Of a stretch of DNA of 24,242 nucleotides, positions 16,403-20,246 are shown in pieces. Position 1 is the first letter of the stretch, and each line of letters opens with the position of its first letter. The stretch lies in the IMG/VR virus record IMGVR_UViG_3300038701_000839, positions 1-24,242 of that record; one strand, 5' to 3'. Source of the DNA: a virus. A program made the position numbers and the translations under genes. The notes beneath the pieces were generated by a model. The model was not told the origin of the DNA and did no database searches. It saw only the letters and a list, made by a program, of their open reading frames with translations.

Positions 16403-16810
16403 ATGGCACACAATACTGGTAACGGCGCAACGATCACTTTCACCGGAGTGTCAGGCTCAATTCGCTCAATCAATCCTGGTGCGTTCAAGCTCGCCGGCAT
16501 TGACGATTCCACGCTCGCAACGACTGACATTCAGGAGATGATCAAGTCAGATTTGCACACGTGCGATGAGGTTGAAATCGAATATCTGTTTGATACCGAT
16601 GACAGCTTGATCGACATCACCAACGCAGCGTCCACGTTGACGATCACTTGGCCGATGGACACCGGGCAAACGACCGCGGCAACGTTGGCAGGCACTGCGT
16701 TTGTGACGGAGGCAAGTTTCCCAACACTTGCCAATGACGAGTTGCAGGTTGCAACGGTCAAGTTCCAATTCGACGGCAAGACCGGCCCCGCATTCACCGC
16801 AGGCAGCTGA
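16403..16810 (+). CDS. Major tail (tube) protein
   Basis: 135 residues; ATG 16403 directly follows the previous TAG with no gap. The protein is small, beta-rich and acidic with few Cys, starting NTGNGATITFTG and including a DLHTCDEVEIEYLFD segment and TITWPMDTGQTTAATLAGTAF near the C-terminal half, typical of phage tail tube subunits of the short type. It polymerises into the tail tube. Assigned by pattern and by position between the tail completion gene and the tail chaperones; the family member cannot be named exactly. Confidence 0.82.
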   Translation: MAHNTGNGATITFTGVSGSIRSINPGAFKLAGIDDSTLATTDIQEMIKSDLHTCDEVEIEYLFDTDDSLIDITNAASTLTITWPMDTGQTTAATLAGTAFVTEASFPTLANDELQVATVKFQFDGKTGPAFTAGS

Positions 16811-16815
16811 TCCTC

Positions 16816-17142
16816 ATGAGCACCGAACCCACCATCACCGCGGTTGAGTTTCGCCCCCACATTGCCGGTTACAGGCTGCTGGAAGACGGAACACAACAAG
16901 ACGTTGAGTTTGACCAGTGGATTCTACTGGTCAATGACGGACCCGATGGGCAGATGGTGCAAGCCGGCTACGTGCAGAAAGCAGATGGCGGTGGTATCCC
17001 ACTGATCCGCCGATTTTCGCCTGAAAACCTCGGGCGGATTCAAGCACTGGTTGAAGCGGAAAAGGGAGCACGGAAACCAGTTAATCAACCCACCTTCTCC
17101 CAGGACGATGACGAAGATGACGAAGATGACGACGAAGAGTGA
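16816..17142 (+). CDS. Small acidic-tailed phage tail-module protein
   Basis: 108 residues from ATG 16816. Unrecognised. A compact N-terminal domain (VEFRPHIAGYRLLEDGTQQD and a WILLVND strand) with a later FSPENLGRIQALVEAEKG helix precedes a strikingly acidic end (about twelve Asp/Glu). The acidic stretch is encoded by three tandem GATGACGAA-type units (17107-17133) that also contain the start codons of the next gene in another frame. It lies between tail tube and chaperone genes, so a tail assembly role is likely but inferred. Confidence 0.55.
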   Translation: MSTEPTITAVEFRPHIAGYRLLEDGTQQDVEFDQWILLVNDGPDGQMVQAGYVQKADGGGIPLIRRFSPENLGRIQALVEAEKGARKPVNQPTFSQDDDEDDEDDDEE

Positions 17143-17506
17143 CCCCCGGCAGGCATTGAGAGACCGGTTGATCAATGTGGCAAAGCGGCGTTTCAAAACG
17201 TTGCTGGTTGATGGTGCCGAGTATGCCATCCAATCCCTGACCGAATTAGAACGCTCGAAAAATGAGTTGTTGCAGTTCAGCAAATCTGGGGATCTGGATT
17301 TGTCCAAGCTGCCTCACGCCAAGTTGGATTTGATCTGCCGGTGCTTGATCGATCCAGAAACCAAGGATCCGCTTTTCCAAGTTGGCGAGTGGGAACTATT
17401 GCAAAACCTGCCTGCCTACGTGACCGCAAAACTCTACTCAGCCTGCTTGGAAGTCAACGGAGTCGAGGATGTTGAGGTTTCGGAGTTGGTGGGAAACTCC
17501 GGATGA
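17108..17506 (+). CDS. Tail assembly chaperone, G-type
   Basis: 132 residues if ATG 17108 is used; ATG 17117 and 17126 are equal alternatives in a repetitive start region (MTKMTKMTT), and the ribosome binding site is weak (AGGA at 17102-17105). Soluble and helical: ALRDRLINVAKRRFKTLLVD, then YAIQSLTELERSKNELLQFS, then LDLICRCLIDPETKDPLF. It occupies the place of lambda G, ahead of a T-type gene and the tape measure, where such proteins hold the tape measure during tail assembly. Before the stop lies an in-phase slippery GGGAAAC (17491-17497), predicting a minor G-T fusion of about 254 residues ending at 17871. Confidence 0.8.
   Translation: MTKMTKMTTKSDPRQALRDRLINVAKRRFKTLLVDGAEYAIQSLTELERSKNELLQFSKSGDLDLSKLPHAKLDLICRCLIDPETKDPLFQVGEWELLQNLPAYVTAKLYSACLEVNGVEDVEVSELVGNSG
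17491..17497 (+). promoter_or_regulatory. Programmed -1 ribosomal frameshift site (GGGAAAC)
   Basis: In the reading frame of the G-type chaperone the sequence is gtG-GGA-AAC, exactly the X-XXY-YYZ form of a canonical -1 slip site, nine bases after which the G stop begins at 17504-17506. Slipping back one base reads CTC, CGG, ATG and continues into the T frame. Lambda uses the near-identical GGGAAAG at the same gene junction. A hairpin downstream (17511-17520 with 17529-17538) could stimulate pausing. Confidence 0.8.
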
Positions 17507-17871
17507 GCCAGCGGATGCGGTGGGCCTGCCGCATCTGTCTGGCACTTGGGATCGATGATCCTGAGCAATGGTTGCACGAATGCACGCCAAGAAAGCTGGC
17601 CATTTGGCAAGCGTTCTACCGTTTTGAACCGTGGGGAGCCGACATGGAGCAAGCCGCAAACATGCAGACGCAGATCAGCGGCCTGATTGCCATGTACGCA
17701 TCGGCACATGGTGCGGACGCTAAGCCGCAACCGATCACGGATTTTATGCCAGCGGATTGGGAAGGGGCACGCAAACCCAAACCAAAGAAACCAAAGCGGA
17801 AGGCAATACAGGCAGCAAAGGCAATCTGCCAATCGTTGTTTCCGTCTGCTGCGAAACGTAGGTACAACTGA
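17503..17871 (+). CDS. Tail assembly chaperone, T-type (probably made as G-T fusion)
   Basis: 122 codons from an ATG at 17503 that overlaps the G stop as ATGA, but likely expressed mainly by -1 frameshifting from the G frame. The region MRWACRICLALGIDDPEQWL, then CTPRKLAIWQAFYRFEPWG matches T-type tail assembly proteins (helix, W-x-x-F/Y-Y, then E-P). The C-terminal part is basic (ARKPKPKKPKRK). It sits directly before the tape measure gene, which overlaps its stop as TGATG. Whether free T is made from the internal ATG is unknown. Confidence 0.78.
   Translation: MSQRMRWACRICLALGIDDPEQWLHECTPRKLAIWQAFYRFEPWGADMEQAANMQTQISGLIAMYASAHGADAKPQPITDFMPADWEGARKPKPKKPKRKAIQAAKAICQSLFPSAAKRRYN
17511..17538 (+). 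promoter_or_regulatory. Hairpin downstream of the frameshift site
   Basis: GATGCGG (17514-17520) is perfectly complementary to CCGCATC (17529-17535), with an eight-base loop TGGGCCTG. Two G-U pairs and one C-G pair extend it to 10 bp (17511-17520 with 17529-17538). The stem starts 13-16 bases past the heptamer, somewhat farther than typical stimulators. It is inside the T coding sequence. Confidence 0.5.
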
Positions 17872-20246
17872 TGGCAACGAATCTAAACGCACTGGTTTTG
17901 AAAGTTGGCAGCGACACGTCTGGTCTGGCGGCTGGCGTCAAAGCGGTGCGTGGTGACATCACGCGTATCAACAACATCATGCGGACAGCAGCAGGCGACA
18001 CCGGCAAGCTGCAACGTGCAACCGCATCGCTGAAACGGATTTACGAAGCCGGTGGAATCGAGATCAAGGAGTATCAACGTGCCATTGGGATTGTAACCAA
18101 GCAATACAAGCAGAACAAAAAAGAGGGCAACGAGCACTCGGCAACGATCCAGAAAGGCAAGTCAATCGTTGCTCAGTATCGATCAGAAACCGATCGAGTG
18201 CGTGATTCGATCACAGCGGTGCGGGTAGCTCATCAGCAAGGAGCCATCACGTCCGATCAGCACACCAATGCAACATCCAAGCTGATGCAGAAACTCCGCG
18301 AACTGAAAGCGGAAGAGGATGGGACGGCGGCAGCAGCGAGGCGGGCGAAACAGCAACAGACCGAAGCGATGGCGATTGTGAAACGATCCACGCCAGAAGT
18401 AGCTAGGTTGTCCGCTCAAATGCAATTATTGAACCGAGCTTACAAAGCTGGGCAAATCAGTACGCAACAATTTCGCCAAGCCAATGCAATGTTGCGGGAA
18501 GATTTGCGTAAGCTGTCCACGCAATCGACTGAAACGACGAGCAAGATGGGGGCGATGGTCTCACAGGTCAAAGGGCTCGTGGCTGCTTATCTCGGGTTCA
18601 ATGCAATACGCACGATCGGCAACGCATCGATGCAGATTGAGCAGGCCGCGGTGTCGTTTGAGGTATTCACAGGATCAGCCGAAGAAGGTTTGCGGGTTGT
18701 CAATGAGCTGCGAGAGTACAGCCAAAACGCTCCGACGCTAGGCGAGACTCAGATTTTCAAAGCGGCCCAAACCATGATGGGTTTCGGCATGGAATCGCAA
18801 AAGGTGTTGCCGATTGTTCGGCAGCTTGGCGACATCAGCGGCGGCAATCAAGAACGGTTCAACTCGTTGGCGTTGGCAATGAGTCAAGCGTCCGCAGCGG
18901 GCAAACTGATGGGGCAGGATTTGCTTCAAATGATCAACGCAGGTTTCAACCCGCTGTTGCAGATTTCGGAGACAACTGGCAAATCCATCGGCGAGCTCAA
19001 AGACGAAATGGCAAAGGGGAACATCTCTTTTGCGATGGTCGAGCAAGCGATGCGTGACGTGACATCCGAAACAGGTCGGATGGGTGGGCTCATGGATAAG
19101 GTCGGAAAAACGTTTGGCGGGCAGTTGTCATCGCTTCGCAAGCAGGCAGTGGGCCTTGGTGTGGACTTCTTCGATACGGTCAAGCCTGCTCTGACTACGG
19201 TTGTGTCGGCGATGGCATCGATGATCAAGGCACTGCGTCAGTTGAAATCAAACCTCAATCAGAATCACGTTCAGATTGCTGCGGTAGTCGCTTCGTTTGG
19301 TGCTGCGGTGTTGATTGTCCCCAAGGTTGTCGCAGCGATCGGAACGGCAGTGGTGGCGGTCAAAAGCATCACGACGGCACTCGTGACCATGCAGGCATAT
19401 TCCGGTCCAGCAGGGTGGGCAACGTTAGCCGCGGGAGCCGGCGTGGCGGCTATTGCGTTGGGCGTAGTCGATGATGCATTTGCCGAAACGATCGACAAGC
19501 AAGGCAAGATGGCCAGCGAATCAGTTGCGACGGTCAAGCAAGCTAAAATGGAAATGGACCAGATCAACGCATCGACAGCGGTTGCCGCAAGTGGGCAGCT
19601 TAACACCGCACAGCAGATGATCACGGCTTACAAAGAGCAAAATGAAGAACTGCGATTGCAGGCACATATCCAAGAGCGTGGGCGATTTCATGTCGAATAC
19701 ATGCAGGCATACCACGCTGGAGCCACTGTGGCTGAGCTAAATCAGATCAAAGCGTTGAAGCAACAAAACGATATGCTGTCCAAGCAAGCAAAAGCAAGAG
19801 AGCAAGCAGCCGAAGCGCAAGAGCGGATTGCTAAAGCGAAAGACGCGATGGTGGCAGAACGAAAAGAACGTGCGGAGCAATTGACTGGAGCGGCAAACGC
19901 TAAGACCGAGCGTGAAACCGCGTTTGAGCGTCTGGCTGAAATCGCACAATTGCAACGCGATGGTTTGATCGATTCACGGGTCACACAGCACGCATTCCGT
20001 GAGGTGGTTCGTGATTTTGCGCAGGCAAACAAGCAACCGGAGAAAAAGAACGAAAACAAACCCATCCCGGTCATTACCAGAGGATCGCGAGAAGAATACC
20101 GACTGATCACGCAAATGCAAATGAACCGCAAGAACGACGACCGGAAGCGTCACGAGCAAGCCCAAGAGTTGCGCCGTGAACAGGTCAAAACACTGCGGGA
20201 AGCGGTTGCGGCGATTCAGAGTATAGAAGGGGCGGAGTCAGTCTGA
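17871..20246 (+). CDS. Tape measure protein
   Basis: 791 residues, the longest gene, coupled by TGATG to the T gene. Its length sets tail length in siphoviruses. The N-terminal ~240 residues are helical with three related units of the form G-x-I-x(3-5)-F/Y/H-x3-A (about 61-80, 124-142, 194-215). The tape measure domain follows: MQIEQAAVSFEVFTGSAEEG at about 254-273, a T-L-G-E-T-Q-I-F-K-A-A stretch, GNQERFNSLALAMSQASAAG, and GKLMGQDLLQMINAGFNPL (about 344-362). Hydrophobic segments near 467-500 and 505-533 could insert in the membrane at DNA injection. The C-terminal 200 residues are a charged coiled coil. Confidence 0.93.
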   Translation: MATNLNALVLKVGSDTSGLAAGVKAVRGDITRINNIMRTAAGDTGKLQRATASLKRIYEAGGIEIKEYQRAIGIVTKQYKQNKKEGNEHSATIQKGKSIVAQYRSETDRVRDSITAVRVAHQQGAITSDQHTNATSKLMQKLRELKAEEDGTAAAARRAKQQQTEAMAIVKRSTPEVARLSAQMQLLNRAYKAGQISTQQFRQANAMLREDLRKLSTQSTETTSKMGAMVSQVKGLVAAYLGFNAIRTIGNASMQIEQAAVSFEVFTGSAEEGLRVVNELREYSQNAPTLGETQIFKAAQTMMGFGMESQKVLPIVRQLGDISGGNQERFNSLALAMSQASAAGKLMGQDLLQMINAGFNPLLQISETTGKSIGELKDEMAKGNISFAMVEQAMRDVTSETGRMGGLMDKVGKTFGGQLSSLRKQAVGLGVDFFDTVKPALTTVVSAMASMIKALRQLKSNLNQNHVQIAAVVASFGAAVLIVPKVVAAIGTAVVAVKSITTALVTMQAYSGPAGWATLAAGAGVAAIALGVVDDAFAETIDKQGKMASESVATVKQAKMEMDQINASTAVAASGQLNTAQQMITAYKEQNEELRLQAHIQERGRFHVEYMQAYHAGATVAELNQIKALKQQNDMLSKQAKAREQAAEAQERIAKAKDAMVAERKERAEQLTGAANAKTERETAFERLAEIAQLQRDGLIDSRVTQHAFREVVRDFAQANKQPEKKNENKPIPVITRGSREEYRLITQMQMNRKNDDRKRHEQAQELRREQVKTLREAVAAIQSIEGAESV

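Follow-up and report, generated by a model that had tools for sequence, protein, structure and literature searches.

Predicted lambda-type programmed -1 frameshifting between tail assembly chaperone genes in a virus group linked to Planctomycetota

Whether two overlapping open reading frames that lie between the tube and tape measure genes of a tailed virus (the tube gene recognised by position and homologues) encode two separate proteins, or are joined by ribosomes that slip back one base, is the question raised by the 24,242-base virus record analysed here (the window). At the level of sequence, a programmed -1 ribosomal frameshift of the lambda G/GT type very probably links them, with a probability of roughly 0.94; the G-T fusion predicted by the first-pass annotation thereby draws support from the slippery heptamer, the phase of the two frames, a downstream stem, the covariation of that stem and the relatives. 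The window carries an HK97-type head and siphovirus-like tail module in the order terminase, portal, Clp protease, capsid, adaptor, neck, terminator, probable tube, G, T and tape measure (Table 1). The G-type and T-type identities proposed from the letters alone were borne out, G matching a tail assembly chaperone family (phrog_344) and T matching PF06223 with 26.3 bits, just over the curated cut-off of 25.9. The product encoded between the terminator and the chaperones is likely the tail tube, with which the T part would be expected to interact. A small open reading frame (16816-17142) follows this gene and runs into the start of G; its tail is rich in aspartate and glutamate, and Pfam and PHROG gave no match for it; comparable acidic-tailed frames sit between tube and G in loci L013, L019 and L104.

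Table 1. Coordinates of the features at and around the G-T junction of the window
Feature	Coordinates	Strand	Basis and remarks
Likely tail tube protein gene	16403..16810	+	location between terminator and chaperone genes; just a weak PF18914 match; homologues likewise placed in relatives
G-type tail assembly chaperone gene	17108..17506	+	phrog_344, E 1.8e-7; zero-frame product about 132 aa
Predicted GT fusion	17108..17871	+	17108-17497 joined to 17497-17868; some 254 aa; prediction based on heptamer, phase and relatives
SD-like GAGG	17474..17477	+	13 nt upstream of heptamer; possible stimulator
Second SD-like word, GGAG	17482..17485	+	sequence
Slippery heptamer G GGA AAC	17491..17497	+	sequence; also at the identical position in 22 clade I viral loci and the TBK1r prophage
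Spacer, 9 nt	17498..17506	+	last 3 nt are the zero-frame TGA (17504-17506)
T-type region, ATG-to-stop frame	17503..17871	+	PF06223 Phage_tail_T; phrog_337
Putative stimulatory stem-loop	17507..17543	+	15 bp; arms 17507-17521 and 17528-17543; six-base loop 17522-17527; bulged U17538
Tape measure protein gene	17871..20246	+	PF20155 TMP_3, E 2.8e-23; expected client of G and GT

The junction itself reads GTG GGA AAC TCC GGA TGA in the frame of G (which has alternative ATG codons at 17117 and 17126), so that GGGAAAC stands in register as first described. The T frame lies exactly in the -1 phase, again as first described, and is open from 17476, just after a TGA at 17473-17475, through the stop ending at 17871. 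The distance from heptamer to stop, given earlier as seven codons, is really two (TCC GGA). Codons after the slip would be CTC CGG ATG AGC (L R M S), and the predicted junction peptide of GT would be ...SELVGN|LRMSQR.... Heptamers of the form XXXYYYZ occur in frame 32 times in 7721 codon steps across the genes of the window (0.0041 per codon), giving a chance of 3.3% (P = 0.033) of at least one in the eight-codon G-T overlap; taken alone, this figure is only suggestive. Judged from the comparisons below, the site is under selection, conservation in relatives removing the doubt that remains.

In the proposed mechanism, the majority of ribosomes would translate G and terminate at its TGA, and a minority would stall at the stem, perhaps aided by the upstream GAGG. 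During the stall, tRNA-Gly on GGA and tRNA-Asn on AAC would each move a base backwards to pair with GGG and AAA, and reading would go on in the T frame to produce GT. By analogy with lambda, G would coat the tape measure protein and GT would recruit tail tube subunits. The slippage itself, its frequency and the roles of G and GT are all inferred.

Relatives provide the weightiest evidence. Scans of IMG/VR in which G or T was the lone query returned no matches, and tblastn against known phages left G unmatched and found for T only weak matches in Pasteurella phages. A capsid query of IMG/VR yielded 22 contigs, eight with a recognisable T, and an alignment of T then added 80. In about 120 relatives of T, drawn from IMG/VR and Planctomycetota genomes and including partly redundant contigs, T lies in the -1 phase of a G-length reading frame, and this holds for 88 of the 88 viral loci, a number that counts one contig twice (L013 is L097). 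The viral loci fall into three site types, the first two of them belonging to sister clades of the window. Clade I (22 loci) carries yTG GGA AAC immediately ahead of TAA or TGA; across 15 distinct sequences its GGA and AAC codons never change, while synonymous variation is seen at 20 of the 24 upstream codons that are conserved and degenerate. Clade II (56 loci) has no XXXYYYZ heptamer, which rules out such a heptamer as the form of every site in the family; its site is CTGGGGGAGTC, with TGGGGGAGTC (TG_GGG_GAG_TC) invariant in 56 of 56 loci, and is a probable non-canonical slip site built on five G residues. The GGG GAG of this clade is unchanged in 28 distinct sequences, yet full conservation of a degenerate amino acid is seen nowhere in the 42 codons that precede it (columns -45 to -4). 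The remaining viral loci have AAAAAAG, AAAAAAC or runs of A. Clade II comprises L013 and L044-L103 (for example L013 near 15688), with an SD-like GAGG 13 nt upstream, and L098 has a GGGAAAG ahead of its clade II motif. The suggested comparison of relatives thus came out in favour of the prediction, clade I keeping GGGAAAC and all viral relatives and confident genome hits keeping the -1 phase. The first-pass annotation had also named relatives without any slippery site as grounds for abandoning the idea; the 56 clade II loci do lack the canonical heptamer, but they retain both the -1 phase and the invariant 5-G site.

Downstream of the heptamer, the first-pass annotation had noted a GC-rich hairpin pairing 17514-17520 with 17529-17535. 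Those seven base pairs are real but incomplete, forming the inner half of a 15-bp stem that begins 9 nt past the heptamer. The 53 nt that follow the heptamer fold at -29.6 kcal/mol, below all 3456 sampled 53-nt windows of the 24-kb sequence and with a z of -3.5 against shuffles. In the clade I alignment, where the window aligns gap-free with 15 loci, the consensus stem keeps 95.5% of its pairing and five pairs are compensated on both sides; shifting the partner strand destroys the pairing, and 0 of 500 shuffles reach so high a value, a count that is not a probability because clade I sequences are closely related. The outer stem of the window pairs in a register slightly off the clade I consensus, in an identical layout. 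The stimulatory element that belongs to the G/GT class is thus present as a covarying stem, which speaks to its presence and not to its effect. A strong downstream stem as a universal feature is ruled out, since local fold energy ranks among the lowest 5% at just 19 of 52 non-redundant sites, and structure is weak at those clade II sites that were sampled. Upstream, the GAGG and GGAG words reported earlier are present, at coordinates now refined as tabulated. SD-like words occur 8-18 nt upstream in 25 of the 52 non-redundant sites against 4.5 expected, an excess confounded by the acidic codons with which the G gene ends.

The alternative that survives best accepts the frameshift and changes its mechanics: a single P-site tRNA would move from GGA to GGG ahead of the decoding of AAC, and the product would read ...VGKLRM and not ...VGNLRM. 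The invariant GGG GAG of clade II seems to permit a P-site shift only, and most relatives have K-L after the slip in the T frame. For the window this is nevertheless unlikely, for a perfect heptamer takes in the A-site codon as well in clade I and in most of the Planctomycetota loci, suggesting that both tRNAs matter. Less likely again is a set of three products, in which the fusion would be accompanied by some free T from the ATG; the window does have this ATG and an SD-like GGGA alongside the frameshift site, but the ATG is not conserved, which means that the family can do without free T. Finally, the idea that T is an ordinary separate gene at an incidental heptamer, translated by coupling at the ATGA overlap (ATG at 17503, with GGGA 8 nt upstream as a possible SD sequence), can point to a start codon at about this position in 13 of 22 clade I loci but is highly improbable, given that 9 of the 22 clade I loci and 50 of the 56 in clade II show no ATG, GTG or TTG up to position +12 of the T core, whereas the heptamer or 5-G site and the phase are kept in all and the stem is kept in clade I. 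Since T in relatives usually lacks a start codon, the fusion would be the only ready route to T, and the ATG of the window is most likely dispensable. Against the frameshift reading counts the behaviour of heptamers with AAC as second codon, which slip poorly in comparison with AAG in E. coli reporters (PMC4066793, PMC5009743). The ATG that the window retains for T, which would allow independent translation, and the slightly shifted register of its outer stem also count against it.

Among named genomes, the T alignment hit nothing but two prophage copies in Planctomycetes bacterium TBK1r, which we take to be Stieleria magnilauensis, of the Pirellulales. Its prophage junction reads TTG GGA AAC TAA, and its G is 41% identical to that of the window; because site and G are shared in this way, a planctomycete host is inferred for the window phage. 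The two copies (L104 and L105; CP036432.1, at about 7.958 and 8.002 Mb) lie about 44.5 kb apart, are identical over the 1.3 kb compared and are possibly a tandem prophage. More widely, 37 non-redundant Planctomycetota loci have an in-register site, all 37 with T in the -1 phase: AAAAAAC in 18, GGGAAAC in 8, CCCAAAC in 1, AAAAAAA in 8 and GGGAAAA in 2. Three weak T hits without a site (L173, L175, L176) were treated as probably not T. In about 15 Planctomycetota loci (among L104-L122 and L151-L180) a stop codon directly follows the heptamer.

The second slippery codon in these 37 loci is AAC in 27, AAA in 10 and AAG in none. Among 12 proteobacterial phages, nine have sites that end in AAG, two Vibrio phages use AAA, and one Pasteurella phage has both CCCAAAG and AAAAAAC. 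Seven of the nine AAG sites read GGAAAAG, which is not a perfect heptamer but is the annotated slip site of N15, phi80 and LLS. Given how poorly AAC second codons perform in E. coli (PMC4066793), this contrast merits attention. One might therefore propose that planctomycete ribosomes and tRNAs follow a -1 slip rule unlike that of E. coli, favouring AAC, and that the G_GGG_GAG of one related clade is slipped by a single P-site tRNA. The codon counts support such a rule, as do the 7 among 12 Pirellulales IS3-type transposase pairs that carry an in-register GGGAAAC or CCCAAAC (OrfA/OrfB pairs L188, L192, L194, L195, L205, L206 and L208) and the presence of tRNA-Lys(CUU) genes in Pirellulales, which may blunt AAG. 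Opposed to it are AAAAAAG in 2 of the 12 pairs and in two related viral groups, and the AAC sites already predicted in Caulobacter and Burkholderia phages; further, the C at the final heptamer position could be imposed simply by conservation of K-L after the slip. On balance the proposal is doubtful. In view of the IS3-type pairs, AAC probably works in Pirellulales hosts yet is not the sole option. The presence of tgt in 93 of 98 genomes speaks against slippage of AAC through loss of queuosine in Pirellulales, and that idea was rejected. In one Pirellulales genome (G403), a 20-base search pattern has over 100 near-matches; most are the palindromic AGAGCGAGTCGCTCTTTACC, which is a dispersed repeat.

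These observations extend the lambda-style chaperone frameshift, with evidence of stem covariation, to a large virus group linked to Planctomycetota. The GT product would escape automatic annotation. Further, the AAC and AAA second codons of Planctomycetota and the invariant 5-G site of clade II are natural test cases for slippage by bacterial ribosomes, the present rules of which derive mostly from E. coli.

Set beside lambda, whose G/GT site is GGGAAAG, the window agrees in the order tube-G-T-tape measure, as the first-pass annotation had recognised, in the -1 phase, in an X_XXY_YYZ site near the end of G and in a T belonging to PF06223 and phrog_337. It differs in its second codon (AAC against AAG), in the distance from heptamer to stop (two codons against five in lambda), in its long downstream stem and in the family of G, since G of the window and its relatives matches phrog_344 and not phrog_42, that of lambda G. 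The likeness, as far as sequence can tell, is functional and strong, with G itself outside the sequence family of lambda G. A further parallel is Burkholderia phage KL1, for whose gp18/gp19 a GGGAAAC just upstream of the chaperone's TGA stop was predicted (PMC3483164), as in the window, although phage and host differ and KL1 has an extra gene before its tape measure. Similarly, Caulobacter phages phiCbK and Colossus have a tape measure chaperone with a -1 extended form at AAAAAAC or GGGAAAC (PMC3556154), in a host of another phylum, and the haloarchaeal viruses HCTV-1, -2 and -5, whose hosts unlike that of the window are archaea, carry GGGAAAC or AAAAAAC sites in their tail chaperone genes (reviewed in PMC5009743). 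The mechanism is thus known from lambda G/GT, and X_XXA_AAC sites have already been reported for other tailed viruses, of which the window is a new example.
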